This document shows, one piece after another, positions 3,779 through 27,258 of a DNA stretch of 64,000 bases (within the stretch, counting starts at the first letter, position 1; each line of letters opens with the position of its first letter). The position numbers and the translations under genes were made by a program. The notes under the pieces are model-generated. The model did not search any database, was not told the origin of the DNA, and saw nothing but the letters and a program-made list of their open reading frames with translations. The DNA comes from Desulfuromonas sp. AOP6 (GTDB lineage Bacteria; Desulfobacterota; Desulfuromonadia; Desulfuromonadales; SZUA-540), in contig NZ_AP022810.1 in assembly GCF_009731355.2 (NCBI RefSeq), forward strand, positions 2,446,001 to 2,510,000. Direction: 5' to 3'.

Positions 3779-4363
3779 ATGAACACCCTGGATTGTCGCG
3801 GCAAAAAATGTCCCCAGCCGGTGATTGAAACGCGCAAGGCTCTGCTGGCCAGGCCAGCGGCCAGCCAGCGCGTTCTGGTCAACGACGAGACAGCCCGCCA
3901 GAACGTAAGCCGTCTGGCCGAAAGTCTGGGGCGTTCCGTCATCGTCACCGCGACCGAAGGAGGCTTCGTTCTGGAAATCTCCGCCGGAACAACACCGGAA
4001 GCCACCACCTCGGAACCCGCAGTAAGCGGCAAAACCGTGGTCTTTGTGGGCTCGGACAAAATGGGCAGCGGCGATGACGAACTCGGGCATATCCTGATGA
4101 AAAACTTCATCTTCACCCTGCTCGAAATCAATCCCGTTCCCGATGCGCTCTATTTTGTCAACGCCGGCGTCAAACTGACCACCAAGGGCTCGGACGTTAT
4201 CGAAGCACTGACCAGGCTCGCCGACCAAGGGGCCGATATCGCCTCCTGCGGGCTCTGCCTCGAATTCTTCGACCTGAAGGAAAGCCTCGCCGTCGGTCGG
4301 GCGACCAACATGCTCGACACGGTGGAAACTCTAAGCAAAGCGGGGCGCATCATCCGCCCCTAA
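3779..4363 (+). CDS. yedF: Selenium metabolism protein YedF (TusA-like plus DsrE-like domains)
   Basis: A 194-aa two-domain protein. Residues 1-70 are a TusA/SirA-like fold with the CPxP motif (LDCRGKKCPQPVIETRKAL). Residues 85-194 are DsrE/F-like, with cysteines in the ADIASCGLCLEFF motif. This architecture is the YedF family, which co-occurs with selenium utilisation genes; a sulfur/selenium carrier role is inferred, not proven. It ends 22 nt upstream of selC and reads the same way, so yedF and tRNA-Sec may share a transcript. It is divergent from the heme protein gene, with a roughly 96-nt promoter interval. Confidence 0.88.
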   Translation: MNTLDCRGKKCPQPVIETRKALLARPAASQRVLVNDETARQNVSRLAESLGRSVIVTATEGGFVLEISAGTTPEATTSEPAVSGKTVVFVGSDKMGSGDDELGHILMKNFIFTLLEINPVPDALYFVNAGVKLTTKGSDVIEALTRLADQGADIASCGLCLEFFDLKESLAVGRATNMLDTVETLSKAGRIIRP

Positions 4364-4385: not shown

Positions 4386-4481
4386 GGGAGTAGGTAGTAG
4401 TCTGGTGACGCTCCCGGTCTTCAAAACCGGTGGGGGGCGTATCCCGTCCCCGGTGGGTTCGATTCCCATCTGCTCCCGCCA
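4386..4481 (+). tRNA. selC: Selenocysteine tRNA (anticodon UCA)
   Basis: A 96-nt tRNA including encoded CCA. The 8-bp acceptor stem is GGGAGTAG paired with CTGCTCCC (one G-U), the long form typical of tRNA-Sec. Anticodon stem CCGGT/ACCGG encloses loop CTTCAAA with anticodon TCA at 4421-4423. A long variable arm and a T-arm with GGTTCGATTCC are visible. It delivers Sec at UGA with SelB. The 3' part serves as the attachment site of the adjacent integrated element. Confidence 0.97.
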
Positions 4482-4554: not shown

Positions 4555-4583
4555 TTGTGACAAATTTGTGACAATTGTGACAA
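4555..4583 (+). promoter_or_regulatory. Three TTGTGACAA repeats at the left end
   Basis: Exact TTGTGACAA at 4555, 4566 and 4575. The same motif occurs near the right end (7804-7895). Motif arrays at both ends of an integrase-bearing element are what arm-type integrase or excisionase binding sites look like. They also overlap the integrase promoter/leader, so they could be operators. Function is inferred. Confidence 0.6.
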
Positions 4584-4618
4584 ATTCAACCACCACCACC
4601 AAGGCACGAGAGGGGAAA

Positions 4619-5596
4619 ATGGCAACAATCGTTAAGCGCGGAAAAGGGGCCTGGCTGGCTCGAATCCGGAGGAAGGGATACCCACCCCAGGCCAAGACAT
4701 TTGACAGCAAGACAGAGGCCGCAGAATGGGCCAGGAGCGTTGAATCGTCCATGGACCGGGGGCTTTTTGTCGACTACTCGGAGGCGGAGCGCACCACCTT
4801 GACCGACGCCCTTGACCGGTACGAACGGGAAGTTACCAGCAAGAAAAAAGGCAAGGGGCAAGAGAAGGACCGCCTGAACGTGTGGCGAGGGTCTGCTCTA
4901 GCCGCCCGCTCCCTGGTCAGCATCAGGAGCGCGGACGTTGCCTCATGGCGCGACGGCCGACTGGAAGACGGGATCTCGCCGCACACGATCTGCAACGACC
5001 TCTCCCTCCTTTCTCACGTCTACCGGGTAGCGACCACGGATTGGGGCATTGCGGGCCTCACGAACCCCTGCGAGCACGTCCGGCGGCCGAAGCGTCCGGA
5101 GGGAAGAGACAGGAGGCTGGAGGCCGGGGAAGAAGAACGGTTGCTTGCCGCCCTGCCCGCCTCCGTCGGGGCGGTGGTTCGGCTGGCACTGGAGACAGGC
5201 GCGCGGCGCGGGGAGATTTTGGCGCTGAGGTGGGAAAACATCGACCTGGGAAAAAGAACGGCACGCCTCCCTGACACAAAGAACGGGACGGCGCGGGATC
5301 TCCCCCTTTCGACCAGGGCGGTGGAGGTGTTGCGGCAGCAGCCCAGACGGCTGCATGATTCGCGGGTCTTCCAGATCACCCCCGCGCACGTGTCGAAGTC
5401 CTTCCGGGAGGCGTGCGAGCGGGCAGGGGTTGAGGATTTGAGGTTTCACGACCTGCGCCATGAGGCCACCAGCCGCCTGTTTGAAAAGGGACTGAACCCT
5501 ATGCAGGTGGCAGCGATCACAGGGCACAAAACCCTGGTGATGCTGCGAAGATACACCCATTTGCGGGCTGAGGATCTGGCCGCGCTGCTGGGATGA
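4619..5596 (+). CDS. int: Tyrosine site-specific integrase
   Basis: A 325-aa phage-type tyrosine recombinase. The N-terminal arm-binding region (about 1-55: WLARIRRKGYPPQAKTFDSKTEAAEWA) is the AP2-like/Arm-DNA-binding type. A SAM-like core-binding domain follows. The catalytic domain carries R in LETGARRGEI, a Lys in LPDTKNGTARDLPL, H..R in FHDLRHEATS, H in ITGHKT and the nucleophile Y in RRYTHL. All catalytic residues are present, so it should be active. The ATG at 4619 follows GAGAGGGGAAA; an upstream GTG at 4568 lies inside the repeat array and is less likely. It is adjacent to attL and reads into the element. Confidence 0.94.
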   Translation: MATIVKRGKGAWLARIRRKGYPPQAKTFDSKTEAAEWARSVESSMDRGLFVDYSEAERTTLTDALDRYEREVTSKKKGKGQEKDRLNVWRGSALAARSLVSIRSADVASWRDGRLEDGISPHTICNDLSLLSHVYRVATTDWGIAGLTNPCEHVRRPKRPEGRDRRLEAGEEERLLAALPASVGAVVRLALETGARRGEILALRWENIDLGKRTARLPDTKNGTARDLPLSTRAVEVLRQQPRRLHDSRVFQITPAHVSKSFREACERAGVEDLRFHDLRHEATSRLFEKGLNPMQVAAITGHKTLVMLRRYTHLRAEDLAALLG

Positions 5597-22450: not shown

Positions 22451-23857
22451 ATGGATAAAAACGAGCTTCTGCGCCAACTGCCCGCCGTTGATCGCCTGCT
22501 GAACGCTCCTGCCCTGCAGGCCATGGCTACTGCTTGTCCCCATGTCATACTGCTCGAAGCCGCACAGCAGACCGTGGCCAGTTTGCGCCAGGCTGTGCTG
22601 GCGACCGACGCACACAGTCAAACCATCGACTTGTCGGTGGACGCCGTAGCGAGTCAGGCGGCCCGGCTAGCGGTCCGCAAGCTGCAGCCGTCGCTGCGCC
22701 ACGTCATCAACGCCACCGGCACGCTGCTGCATACCAATCTGGGCCGAGCCCCCCTGAGCGAGAAGGCGCTGGCGGCCATTGATCAGGTCTCACGCACCTA
22801 CTCCAATCTTGAATTCGATCTGCACACCGGCCAGCGGGGGCACCGCTATTCCCATATCGACGAGCTGCTGTGCCGACTCACTGGCGCCGAAGCCGCCGCC
22901 GTGGTCAACAACAACGCCGGTGCCGTGCTGCTGGCGCTGACCGCGCTGGCCCAGGGCAAAGAGGCTATCGTCAGTCGCGGCGAGCTGGTAGAGATCGGCG
23001 GCGCCTTCCGTGTTCCCGATGTCATGGCGGCGGGAGGCGTCCTCCTCAAGGAAATCGGTACGACCAACAAAACGCACCTGAAGGATTACCGCGCCGCCAT
23101 TGGCGAGCATACCGGGCTGCTGCTCAAGGTGCACACGAGCAACTACCGTATCGTCGGCTTTTCGTCCCTGGTGCCGGCCGCTGAAATGGTCGACCTCGGT
23201 CGGGAACACAACATCCCGGTCATGGAGGATCTGGGCAGTGGCATGCTCTTCGACCTCTCAAGCTATGGCCTGCCCCGCGAACCGACGGTGAGCGAGGCGG
23301 TGGCCGCCGGCATCGACGTACTGACCTTCAGCGGCGACAAGCTGCTGGGCGGACCGCAAGCGGGCCTTATTGTCGGTAAAAAGTGGGCGATTGACAAAAT
23401 CCGCCACCACCCGCTGGCCCGCGCTCTGCGCATCGACAAGTTGACCTTGGCTGCCCTGGAGGCGACCTTGCGTCACTATCTCGACCAGCAGGAAGCCCTG
23501 CGCGAACTGCCGGTTCTGCAGATGCTGGCCATGAGCGCGGAGGAAGTCAAAAAACGCGCCCAGCGGCTGCGCCAGAAAATCCGCGCCGCCCTGGTCGCCG
23601 AGATCGACAGCGCCATCGTCACCGAAGCTTCGCAGGTCGGCGGCGGCGCACTCCCCTTAACGGAACTGCCCGGCTATGCCGTGGCGCTCACGCCCAAGAA
23701 CTGTTCGGTGGAAGAGTTGGCCATCCGGCTGCGTCAGGGAAACATCCCGGTGGTCGGCCGCCTGCAGGAAGGGCGCCTGCTGCTCAATCCGCGCACCATC
23801 TTCGCCGCCGAGGAGGTCCTGGTGGTCACCGCGCTGAAGGAGGCGCTGGAGAACTGA
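22451..23857 (+). CDS. selA: L-seryl-tRNA(Sec) selenium transferase
   Basis: A 468-aa PLP enzyme converting Ser-tRNA-Sec to Sec-tRNA-Sec with selenophosphate. Family landmarks: VINATGTLLHTNLGRAPL, the region VVNNNAGAVLLAL, and the PLP lysine in LTFSGDKLLGGPQAGLI. Length matches the bacterial SelA norm (about 460). It starts the selA-selB-selD operon; selB begins 2 nt after its stop. selC lies 18 kb away. Confidence 0.97.
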   Translation: MDKNELLRQLPAVDRLLNAPALQAMATACPHVILLEAAQQTVASLRQAVLATDAHSQTIDLSVDAVASQAARLAVRKLQPSLRHVINATGTLLHTNLGRAPLSEKALAAIDQVSRTYSNLEFDLHTGQRGHRYSHIDELLCRLTGAEAAAVVNNNAGAVLLALTALAQGKEAIVSRGELVEIGGAFRVPDVMAAGGVLLKEIGTTNKTHLKDYRAAIGEHTGLLLKVHTSNYRIVGFSSLVPAAEMVDLGREHNIPVMEDLGSGMLFDLSSYGLPREPTVSEAVAAGIDVLTFSGDKLLGGPQAGLIVGKKWAIDKIRHHPLARALRIDKLTLAALEATLRHYLDQQEALRELPVLQMLAMSAEEVKKRAQRLRQKIRAALVAEIDSAIVTEASQVGGGALPLTELPGYAVALTPKNCSVEELAIRLRQGNIPVVGRLQEGRLLLNPRTIFAAEEVLVVTALKEALEN

Positions 23858-23858
23858 C

Positions 23859-25775
23859 ATGAGCCTGAAGACCGAACATCACATCATCATCGGCACGGCC
23901 GGTCACGTCGACCACGGCAAGACGGAACTCATCCGCGCCCTCACCGGCAAGGAAACGGACCGCCTCAAGGAAGAGAAGGCCCGCGGCATCTCCATCGATA
24001 TCGGCTTCGCCCCTTTCCGCCTGCCCAGCGGCGAGATTGCCGGCGTGGTGGACGTCCCCGGCCATGAACGCTTCATCAGCAACATGCTGGCCGGCATCGG
24101 CGGCATCGACCTGGTGCTGCTGGTCATCGATGTCAACGAGGGCGTCATGCCGCAGACCCACGAGCATCTGCAGATTCTCGACCTGCTGCAGGTCCCCAAG
24201 GGCATTGTCGTGCTGACCAAGTGCGATCTGGCCGAACCGGACTGGATCGACATCGTTGAGGAGGAAGTACGCGAAGAGATCGCCGGCACCTTCCTCAAAG
24301 ACGCCCCCTGCTGCCGGGTCTCCTCCATTACCGGCGAGGGGATTCACGAACTCGTCAAGACCATCGCCGAGGTCGCCAAAACCCTGCCCAGCAAGGACGC
24401 CGACGGGCCGCTGCGCCTCCCCGTCGACCGGCACTTCACCGTGGCCGGCTTCGGCACCGTGGTGACCGGCACCCTACTCTCGGGTACCGTACGCCCCGGC
24501 GACACCCTGGAAGTGCTGCCGCCGGGGGAGACGACCCGCGTGCGCGAGGTGCAGGTACACAGTAAAAAGGTCGACGCCGCCTTTGCCGGCCAGCGCGTCG
24601 CCCTCAACCTGACGGGGATCGAGCGCTCCCGGCTGCAGCGCGGTGCGGTCGTAGGCACCCCGGGCATCTTCGAACAGACCGACCGCATCGACGTGCGCCT
24701 GACCCTGCTGGCCGATGCCCCTCGCCCCCTCAAATTCCGCGACCCAGTCCACTTCTACCTCGGCACCGCCAAGGTGGTGGGGATGGTCGCCCTTCTTGAC
24801 CGCGACCTCATGGAGCCGGTGGAGAGCGCCATCGTGCAGATTCATCTCGACCGCCCCCTGGTCGCCCATCGCGAGGATCGCTTCATCATCCGCTCCTATT
24901 CCCCCATGACCACCATCGGCGGCGGCAAGGTCATCGACCCCAAGCCCGTCAAGCACCGCCGCTTCCGCGAGGAGATCATGTCGGCCCTGGCCGAGCTGGA
25001 ATCGGGGGAGAAATCGTTCCTGCTGCAGAAGCTCAGCCAGCAGGGATGCGCCAGGGTGAAGGAGCTCGAACTCATCTCCGGCATGGGCAAGGAGCGCATT
25101 ACCGATCACCTGCAGGCCCTGGAAGAGGACAGCAAGGTGGTTCTGCTCGGCGACCAGTGGACCGTCAGCGAGTCGATTCGCTCCTGGCAGCATCAGCTGC
25201 TGGAGGAGACCAAACGGTTTCTCAGCCAGAATCCGCTGCTGCCCGGCATTCCCCACGCCACCCTGAAGAACACCCTGCCGGCTGCCCTGTCGGCCAAGGG
25301 TTTCGAGCAACTGCTGGAGCAGGCCGTGGCGGAGAACATTCTCTCCCAGCAGGGGGAGTGGGTCGCTATTCCCGGCTATGTGCCGACCCCTTCCGAGGCC
25401 CAGGCGCGGGAGATCAATCGCATCGAAGAGGCCTACCGCAGCGCCGGCTTTCTGGCCAAGAACAAGCGGGAGATGCTCGACCAGCTCGGTCTGAGCGCCG
25501 AAAAGGCCGATCCCTATTTTGGCTTCCTCTTTGCCCAGGGGCGACTGGTGCGCCTGAGCGAGGAGACCTTTTTCCACCTCGAAACCTACCAGCTGGCCCT
25601 CGACGCGCTGCGTAAACACTTCGCCAGCCAGCAGACCCTGACCCTGGCCCAGTTCCGCGATATCCTGGGGAGTGCCCGCAAGCAGACGCAGGCTGTCCTC
25701 GAACACTTCGACTCCCTCAAGTACACCATGCGGCGGGGAGACGAACGGGTGGCCTGGAAGCTGCCACCCGCCTAA
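23859..25775 (+). CDS. selB: Selenocysteine-specific translation elongation factor
   Basis: A 638-aa GTPase bringing Sec-tRNA to UGA. EF-Tu-like motifs: GHVDHGKTELIRALTGKETD, DVPGHERFISNML, and VLTKCDL. Domains II-III follow (residues 175-340). The C-terminal half holds winged-helix domains that bind SECIS RNA (VKELELISGMGKERITDHLQ, and RDILGSARKQTQAVLEHFD near the end). Length and order are normal. selA is 1 nt upstream and selD 19 nt downstream. Confidence 0.97.
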   Translation: MSLKTEHHIIIGTAGHVDHGKTELIRALTGKETDRLKEEKARGISIDIGFAPFRLPSGEIAGVVDVPGHERFISNMLAGIGGIDLVLLVIDVNEGVMPQTHEHLQILDLLQVPKGIVVLTKCDLAEPDWIDIVEEEVREEIAGTFLKDAPCCRVSSITGEGIHELVKTIAEVAKTLPSKDADGPLRLPVDRHFTVAGFGTVVTGTLLSGTVRPGDTLEVLPPGETTRVREVQVHSKKVDAAFAGQRVALNLTGIERSRLQRGAVVGTPGIFEQTDRIDVRLTLLADAPRPLKFRDPVHFYLGTAKVVGMVALLDRDLMEPVESAIVQIHLDRPLVAHREDRFIIRSYSPMTTIGGGKVIDPKPVKHRRFREEIMSALAELESGEKSFLLQKLSQQGCARVKELELISGMGKERITDHLQALEEDSKVVLLGDQWTVSESIRSWQHQLLEETKRFLSQNPLLPGIPHATLKNTLPAALSAKGFEQLLEQAVAENILSQQGEWVAIPGYVPTPSEAQAREINRIEEAYRSAGFLAKNKREMLDQLGLSAEKADPYFGFLFAQGRLVRLSEETFFHLETYQLALDALRKHFASQQTLTLAQFRDILGSARKQTQAVLEHFDSLKYTMRRGDERVAWKLPPA

Positions 25776-25794
25776 CCTGAAAATGGAGACAACC

Positions 25795-26835
25795 ATGGCC
25801 GAGAAGATACGCCTCAGCAGCCTGGCCCGCAGCGCCGGCTGAGCGGCCAAATTGGGTCCCGAGACCCTGGCACAGGTTCTGTGCCATCTGCCGACATATA
25901 ACGACGACAATCTGCTGTCCGCCGCCATCCCCTTCGCCGACGCCGGTATCTACCGCCTTGCCGAAGACATGGCCCTGGTGCAGTCCATCGACTTCTTCAC
26001 GCCCGTGGTCGATGATCCCTTTCTCTACGGTCAGATTGCCGCCGCCAACGCTCTCTCCGATATCTACACCGTGGGGGGCCGGCCGCTGACCGCCCTGAAT
26101 CTGGTGGGTTTTCCCACCTGTTCCCTGGGGACGGAGATGCTGACCCGCATTCTGCAGGGGGGAGCCGACAAGGTGCTGGAAGCGGGTGCCGTGGTGGTGG
26201 GAGGACATTCGGTCCAGGATGACGAACCCAAGTTCGGCCTGGCAGTCACGGGCCTGGTCGATCCGCGCCGCATGGTCACCACCCAGGGAGCCAGGCCTGG
26301 CGACGTTCTCGTACTCACCAAGCCACTGGGCACGGGACTGCTGACCACGGCCATCAAAGGGGAAGTGCTGCAGGATGGGGATATTCCCGAGGCGCTGCAG
26401 GGCATGTGTTTGCTCAACCGGCGGGCCAGCGAGATTATGATGGCGGTGGGGATTTCGGCCTGCACCGACGTCACCGGTTTCGGCCTGCTTGGCCACGCCC
26501 TGGAGATGGCCGAAGCCAGCGGTGTCTGCCTGGAATTGGAAGGGGCAGCGCTGCCGGCCTATCCGCGCGCCTTGGAGATGGCCGACATGGGCCTGGTGCC
26601 CGAAGGGAGCTACGCCAACCGCTCCTACTATCTGCCCCGGGTGGAACAGGCGGAGCAGGCCTCCCGCGCCGTGCTCGACTTGCTCGCCGACCCGCAGACC
26701 TCCGGCGGCCTGCTCATGGCCGTACCGGAAGCCAAGGCGGACAGCCTCTGTGCCAAGCTGCGCGAGGATGGCGGCCAGGCTTTCGTCATCGGCCGCGTAC
26801 TGCCAGCGCCGGCGGCCCGCTTGCGGCTGCGCTGA
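25795..26835 (+). CDS. selD: Selenide water dikinase, selenoprotein with in-frame UGA
   Basis: SelD makes selenophosphate from selenide and ATP. Reading from the ATG at 25795 (SD GGAG) gives MAEKIRLSSLARSAG-U-AAKLGPE, with UGA at 25840-25842 as codon 16. This is exactly the catalytic Cys/Sec position of SelD, followed by the KLGPETL segment. The full protein is 346 aa. Further family motifs are IDFFTPVVDDPF, VVGGHSVQDDEPKFGLA and ACTDVTGFGLLGHALEMA. Reading only from the codons after the UGA would truncate it. Translation therefore needs SelB and its own product, a feedback arrangement. Confidence 0.96.
25840..25886 (+). promoter_or_regulatory. Sec UGA and candidate bacterial SECIS of selD
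   Basis: UGA at 25840. Downstream, stem TGGCAC (25868-25873) with GTGCCA (25881-25886) closes loop AGGTTCT, a GGU-type loop as in bacterial SECIS elements. A nearer hairpin GGGTC-CCGA-GACCC (25854-25867) is an alternative or part of a composite stem. Confidence 0.65.
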
Positions 26836-26865
26836 AAAAAAACCGGCGACCTAGAGGTCGCCGGT
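26834..26865 (-). terminator. Terminator between selD and convergent gene
   Basis: A perfect 11-bp stem of an ACCGGCGACCT palindrome (26842-26852 with 26855-26865) plus 8 As on the left, which are Us for the minus transcript. It overlaps the last codons of the minus-strand gene and works for it; it may also serve selD. Confidence 0.8.
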
Positions 26866-27258
26866 GAGTTCCTGCAGTCGGTAAATCTTCGGGTTGAGGT
26901 CGCGCACGCAGGTGACAATCTCCCGCAATCGCTCTTCTTCAACCCCTTCCTCTTCGTCCCGCCCCTGGAAAAACCCATAGCCCTTGGGCAGGGGCGCGTA
27001 ACCGCCGTCCTTCATCAGGGAGACGTCCACCTGGTCGTTGACCCGCCCCGCGGCCTCCCAGGGGTCGCGGTAGTTGAACTGACGGGCGACGACGTGCAAG
27101 CCGAGGCCGTTAGGGAAGAGGGCCTTGACCTCGAAGGAAAACTCCCGCGGCGCGCTGTAGTGTTCGCTGCGCCCCGACCGGGCCATCACCTTGGCTCCCG
27201 CCTCGACCAGCAGGTCACGTACGGATTCCAGCGTCATCGGTTTGATATCGGTATCCAT
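26851..27258 (-). CDS. Hypothetical protein of the MoxR/VWA module
   Basis: A 135-aa protein containing YSAPREFSFEVKALFPNGLG and an acidic C-terminal part (QGRDEEEGVEEERLREIV). No transmembrane or metal motif. It is the last gene of a three-gene minus-strand unit MoxR-VWA-this, 21 nt after the VWA gene. I do not recognise a family. Possibly an accessory substrate or adaptor. Confidence 0.65.
   Translation of the reverse strand: MDTDIKPMTLESVRDLLVEAGAKVMARSGRSEHYSAPREFSFEVKALFPNGLGLHVVARQFNYRDPWEAAGRVNDQVDVSLMKDGGYAPLPKGYGFFQGRDEEEGVEEERLREIVTCVRDLNPKIYRLQELTGDL

Follow-up and report, generated by a model that had tools for sequence, protein, structure and literature searches.

SelD, the selenophosphate synthetase, characteristically has a catalytic selenocysteine (Sec) or cysteine, followed by a conserved lysine, in its N-terminal loop. 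Mariotti et al. (2015; PMC4561486) surveyed a prokaryotic reference set and found Sec, always at one position, in 19% of its SelD genes, the others having Cys; they also describe misannotation as usual for selenoprotein genes. Zhang et al. (2006; PMC1794560), in their Table 3, list SelD among the selenoproteins of Desulfuromonas acetoxidans, as well as among those of Geobacter metallireducens, G. sulfurreducens, and G. uraniumreducens, and Table 1 of a further report (PMC1242214) contains a predicted read-through for the selenide, water dikinase of Aquifex aeolicus.

Here, we analyzed the selD locus of Desulfuromonas sp. AOP6 in a DNA stretch of 64,000 nucleotides (the window, meaning the whole stretch), together with the complete genome and the selD genes of related bacteria. 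The comparisons indicate that the in-frame UGA at the catalytic position of SelD itself is very probably read as Sec.

Results

An in-frame UGA codon at the catalytic position of SelD

The selD gene lies on the plus strand at 25795–26835 and would encode a selenophosphate synthetase of 346 residues with Sec at residue 16. Its start, as read from the sequence, is the ATG at 25795–25797, with a Shine-Dalgarno-like GGAG (25785–25788, plus strand) located 6 nt upstream. The frame contains a single internal TGA, the candidate Sec codon 16 (25840–25842, plus strand), and ends normally at the TGA at 26833–26835. When the internal TGA is read through, the product exhibits a full-length match to the SelD equivalog profile TIGR00476 (residues 6–314, 365.5 bits, cut-off 125), also passes NF002098 (317.5 bits, cut-off 299), and contains the Pfam AIRS domains PF00586 and PF02769. 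The solved SelD structures PDB 2yye and 3u0o were matched by phmmer, and both the profile and the PDB matches span the UGA codon. In the phmmer alignment and in an alignment of six SelD rows, residue 16 corresponds to Cys17 of E. coli K-12 SelD and Lys19 to Lys20; both the catalytic residue and the lysine typical of SelD are therefore present, as U16 and K19. An alignment with Sec-SelD sequences had been proposed in the initial annotation.

The initial annotation had also described an ATG with a Shine-Dalgarno sequence leading into a frame with one UGA at the catalytic position, which agrees with the reading above, and had warned that automatic start calling would miss the active site. The warning holds for the mechanical open reading frame (ORF) finder, which placed the start of selD at the TTG at 25852, 3′ of the UGA, with loss of the active site. 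The complete genome (one contig, 3,269,909 bases) encodes one full-length SelD; apart from it, there is a single weak match (E = 4.7e-6, 27% identity), which lacks an internal stop.

Downstream of selD, a 10-bp inverted repeat with a minus-strand T run (26842–26865) lies between the gene and a converging ORF (26851–27258), for which no Pfam or NCBIfam family was found at E 0.001.

Conservation of the UGA codon among relatives

A match with E of at most 0.001 was obtained in 128 of the 136 genomes of the order that were searched; the matches include weak ones that lack an internal stop. Codon 16 was read in 110 loci from 105 genomes, including the window's own; these comprise 30 SelD loci that were kept (the window's among them) and 80 picked among the matches listed as covering the codon. 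Outside this count, the matches listed include eight codon-covering places, mostly fragments, with one TGA each, and a further one (genome G110) with none. Codon 16 is TGA in 105 of the 110 loci, TGT in 4, and TGC in 1. Within the genus, a gene 96% identical to that of the window (L003) also has TGA at this codon; selD was found in genome G108, and genome G107 (78% complete, 470 contigs) gave a weak match only. In other taxa, 72 loci were read, of which 26 have TGA and 46 have Cys codons. Sec/Cys is the sole exchange at codon 16 across all 182 loci read.

Several loci of the order depart from the single Sec-type gene. The full SelD at locus L023 (genome G131) has Cys (TGT), and the two further genes read in its genus, L025 and L105, have TGA. 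Since L023 groups in the tree with L113 of another family (support 0.988), transfer or contig misassignment is possible. In family f17, a Cys-type SelD is fused behind an Se_S_carrier domain (L177, 558–1817); the domain was identified in L177, which alone was tested (PF11823, 52.8 bits), and L175, L178, and L180 have a similar N-terminal context at the codon. Genomes G109 and G115 each have such a Cys-type gene plus a Sec-type SelD. Two Sec-type selD genes (L017 and L179, 65% and 48% identical to the window's, respectively) lie about 4 kb apart on contig C96 of genome G099, and G124 and G092 have two SelD genes each, all with UGA.

A bSECIS hairpin 3′ of the UGA codon

Folding of the RNA 3′ of the UGA revealed a hairpin of 8 bp at 25868–25886 (plus strand), whose loop, G-U-U at 25876–25878, is 33 nt from the UGA. 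The hairpin lies inside the range 25840–25900, for which SECIS prediction had been proposed initially. The bSECIS model quoted in PMC13188914 has a loop of 3–9 nt, with G at loop position 1 or 2, and an upper stem of 4–16 bp, at a distance of 16–37 nt from the UGA. The selD hairpin fits this model, with a 3 nt loop, 8 bp, G first, and 33 nt, although its loop is near the far limit of the allowed spacing. A hairpin with a CAG-GUN-CUG apex is formed 3′ of the UGA in most genes of the main clade, a term used here for the 86 Sec genes from the order with an identity of at least 55% to the selD of the window. An Rfam search gave no family at 25868–25886 at the gathering threshold.

Covariation was analyzed in the main clade (84 distinct rows); the order's 5 Cys genes and its 19 more distant Sec genes did not enter this set. 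At positions 25872/25882, 36 rows have GC, 18 UA, 14 CG, 12 AU, 1 GU, and 3 CA; the pair thus occurs in all four Watson-Crick types. It is formed in 81 of the 84 rows, compared to a mean of 33.7 in shuffles, none of 2000 of which reached 81, and it has the highest APC-corrected mutual information among column pairs at least 4 apart within the stretch. The pair 25870/25884 is likewise formed in 81 of 84 rows, compared to 72.8 in shuffles (0 of 2000 reaching 81). Six of the eight pairs are near-constant in the main clade and carry little covariation information. Because shuffles ignore relatedness, the changes of pair 25872/25882 were also counted on a tree, built from codon 36 onward with the hairpin codons left out, and 13 parsimony changes were obtained on this one tree. 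Four genes have a C-A mismatch at this key pair.

At the register of the window's hairpin, all 8 pairs are formed in 75 of the 86 main-clade Sec genes; in other taxa, they are formed in 9 of 26 Sec genes and in none of 46 Cys genes. The 5 Cys genes of the order form a mean of 6.0 of the 8 pairs at this register. The covariation, in which pair 25872/25882 is decisive, supports a bSECIS hairpin at 25868–25886.

The folding energies were less discriminating. The 66 nt from just 5′ of the UGA gave a z of −2.33 against dinucleotide shuffles, 4 of 200 of which folded equally well, and the SECIS stretch of the window's selD gave −2.51 against synonymous shuffles, compared to −3.1 in one of the 14 control windows taken from this gene. 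For 57-nt windows after the codon, the mean z was −0.99 in the 105 Sec genes of the order and −0.13 in 1470 control windows; 14 of the 105 genes were below −2, and in 20 genes this window was the lowest of their own roughly 15. The mean was −0.79 in 4 Cys genes of the order (the fifth was dropped for N), close to that of the Sec genes, and −0.75 and −0.19 in the 26 Sec and 46 Cys genes of other taxa, respectively. Folding energy alone, with this modest excess, was rejected as a weak SECIS test, and covariation was used instead. When the register was left free and at least 6 contiguous pairs plus an early G were required, 80 of the 86 Sec genes in the main clade yielded a hairpin; in other taxa, one was obtained for 18 of 26 Sec genes and also for 23 of 46 Cys genes.

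These values bear on an alternative explanation, in which recoding takes place but read-through depends on other signals, the hairpin being a by-product of codon use and of conservation at the protein level. The small folding-energy excess, the hairpins of at least 6 pairs in half of the other-taxa Cys genes, and the near-invariance of Leu25, Gln27, Val28, and Leu29 in the main clade, which fixes several pairs, are all in line with such a by-product. However, the third base of codon 26, which is free to vary, can form a Watson-Crick pair with the first base of codon 30 in 81 of the 86 genes, whereas the same complementarity occurs at 615 of 2800 (22%) like codons downstream in the same genes, which served as the codon-use control. 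Moreover, residue 30 (R in 37 genes, S in 22, C in 13, G in 12, and D in 2) shifts in step with pair 25872/25882. We regard the by-product explanation as very improbable; an RNA element within the coding region appears to steer the amino acid at position 30.

A second, smaller hairpin can be folded in the window's selD at 25854–25867 (plus strand) and is not consistently conserved: its five pairs are formed in 46, 55, 52, 47, and 82 of the 84 rows, and 25857/25864 alone exceeds its shuffles. Its position is closer to the spacing of the SECIS of E. coli fdhF. It was rejected as the SECIS core because it lacks a G in the first two loop places here and its pairs are inconsistently formed. Ranks 2–4 of the mutual information also fall in the stretch 25854–25867 and presumably reflect two peptide types, Gly-Pro-Glu and Ala-Pro-Gly. 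The stretch may represent a second conserved fold.

The 19 distant Sec genes of the order are about 46–50% identical to the window's, except for L181 and L182 (about 39–40%). In 15 of them, the best hairpin is closer to the UGA than in the window, its loop being displaced by 12 nt in ten genes (L159, L161, L162, L167, L168, L171, L172, L174, L176, and L183) and by 16 nt in five (L158, L160, L163, L169, and L170). The register thus varies across the family, which suggests a shift of the SECIS within a single gene family.

Selenocysteine machinery and other UGA-containing genes

Upstream of selD on the plus strand lie selA (22451–23857), encoding the L-seryl-tRNA(Sec) selenium transferase (TIGR00474, 620.7 bits, cut-off 267.9; PF03841), and selB (23859–25775), encoding the Sec-specific elongation factor (TIGR00475, 395.3 bits, cut-off 242.25), in which the winged-helix domains PF09106 and PF09107 were found. 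The three genes are arranged head to tail with gaps of 1 nt and 19 nt, and probably form one operon. The tRNA-Sec gene selC, with the anticodon TCA, is located at 4386–4481 (plus strand; ARAGORN; Rfam RF01852, 77.3 bits), directly 3′ of yedF, which encodes a selenium metabolism protein (3779–4363, plus strand; TIGR03527, 209 bits, cut-off 110). By sequence, the host machinery of SelA, SelB, SelD, and tRNA-Sec is thus complete.

Just 3′ of selC, the ORF 4568–5596 resembles tyrosine recombinases, with NCBIfam matches of up to 79.3 bits, all under their cut-offs. Because this recombinase-like ORF starts just past selC, its position suggests that the tRNA-Sec gene is a present or past integration site.

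The genome was surveyed with six families, five of them for selenoproteins. In four further genes, the frame contains a UGA and the product resembles a known selenoprotein family. Two of the products score above the Pfam cut-off, namely a peroxiredoxin (FTFVUPTELT, 116.3 bits) and a peroxiredoxin-like protein (FTPVUTGEM, 64.8 bits). The third is an FdhA-like formate dehydrogenase alpha subunit (ARIUHSATVAGL), matched piecewise with a best score of 204.4 bits and no piece above the family cut-off, and the fourth a HesB-like protein (GFGUGGPRLG, 24.5 bits, under the cut-off of 26.3). We take the places of the UGA in the peroxiredoxin, FdhA, and HesB-like genes to be the usual Sec places. The names of these families are included in Table 3 of PMC1794560. 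A purely self-serving system, in which SelD would be the sole selenoprotein, was rejected in view of the FdhA-like, the two peroxiredoxin-like, and the HesB-like UGA genes. The survey also found ybbB, the selenouridine synthase gene; FlpD had no match in the genome, and none of six thioredoxin matches has an internal stop. Scanning the window for UGA codons in frame yielded 143 candidate frames and recovered selD (25840); among the long-flank frames listed, no other selenoprotein was recognized by eye.

The composition of the genome also bears on the possibility that the UGA terminates translation, with a working SelD starting at the TTG at 25852, without the catalytic residue, and the upstream frame being a leader or remnant. 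This would accord with the start chosen by the mechanical ORF caller. However, the residues 5′ of the UGA are SelD-like, as shown by Leu7 and Gly15, which are invariant across the six-row alignment, and by the protein start shared with E. coli; the only substitution seen at codon 16 is Cys; and the genome has no second full-length SelD, yet contains selA, selB, tRNA-Sec, and four other UGA genes. There is hardly any chance that the UGA of selD acts as a terminator in this way.

Discussion

The selD gene of Desulfuromonas sp. AOP6 is almost certainly a selenoprotein gene, in which UGA codon 16 would be recoded and a selenophosphate synthetase with Sec16 would feed its own synthesis. This conclusion, which is the central claim of the initial annotation, is drawn from the sequence, through the frame, the position of the UGA, its conservation in the order, the covarying bSECIS hairpin, and the presence of SelA, SelB, and tRNA-Sec in the window. 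A sequencing error at 25840 had been named at the outset as the case that would overturn it; an origin of the UGA from a Cys-type selD, through such an error or through a nonsense mutation of recent date, has nothing specific in its favor, although 5 of the 110 loci of the order have Cys codons. It is already refuted by conservation and has a negligible likelihood, because TGA is found at the same codon in 104 other loci of the order, including that of the same genus, and the hairpin pair has been kept through its 13 changes.

In the recoding mechanism that we favor, ribosomes starting at the ATG at 25795 would encounter the UGA at codon 16, and the product would be a selenophosphate synthetase with Sec16 in place of Cys17 of the E. 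coli enzyme. SelD would make selenophosphate, which SelA would use for the formation of Sec-tRNA(Sec); therefore, SelD would feed its own synthesis. For selD, the steps of recoding, SelB binding, and catalysis are inferred from what is established for SelA, SelB, and SelD in general.

Since the only full-length SelD of the genome would need its own product and is encoded together with SelA and SelB in an apparent operon, the UGA of selD could conceivably switch the entire Sec pathway on and off according to the selenium supply. If so, selenium starvation would lead to less SelD translation, and recovery would be self-accelerating. We consider such a switch unlikely. A literature search on feedback returned mostly unrelated matches, among which no report for bacterial selD was recognized; selenium feedback on selD, which the initial annotation had raised as a potential consequence, is a conjecture from the dependence of SelD on its own product.

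The analysis confirms a recoding call where a plain ORF finder errs, and thereby fixes the start and the active site of selD in this genome. In addition, the covariation of the hairpin provides a clean example of an RNA element in a coding region that apparently steers the residue at position 30. Existing knowledge of SelD is unchanged by these findings.

With respect to solved structures, the best match is A. aeolicus SelD (PDB 2yye, 243.2 bits; also 2zod), with which the window's SelD has in common the stretch GCAAK around the Sec/Cys residue. The PDB chain of the A. aeolicus protein has Cys at the position where the window's SelD has Sec. We take 2yye to be an SelD that natively has Sec, in which the Cys was presumably engineered for expression.

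The Sec-SelD of the window is ordinary, and the arrangement is long known and common in this bacterial group. Sec-SelD was already tabulated for Geobacter and Desulfuromonas by Zhang et al. (2006; PMC1794560, Table 3), so that no novelty attaches to the present case; judged by this listing, the same Sec enzyme occurs there in different species. In the survey of Mariotti et al. (2015; PMC4561486), Sec-SelD is the minority form, whereas Sec predominates in the order sampled here, with 105 of the 110 loci.
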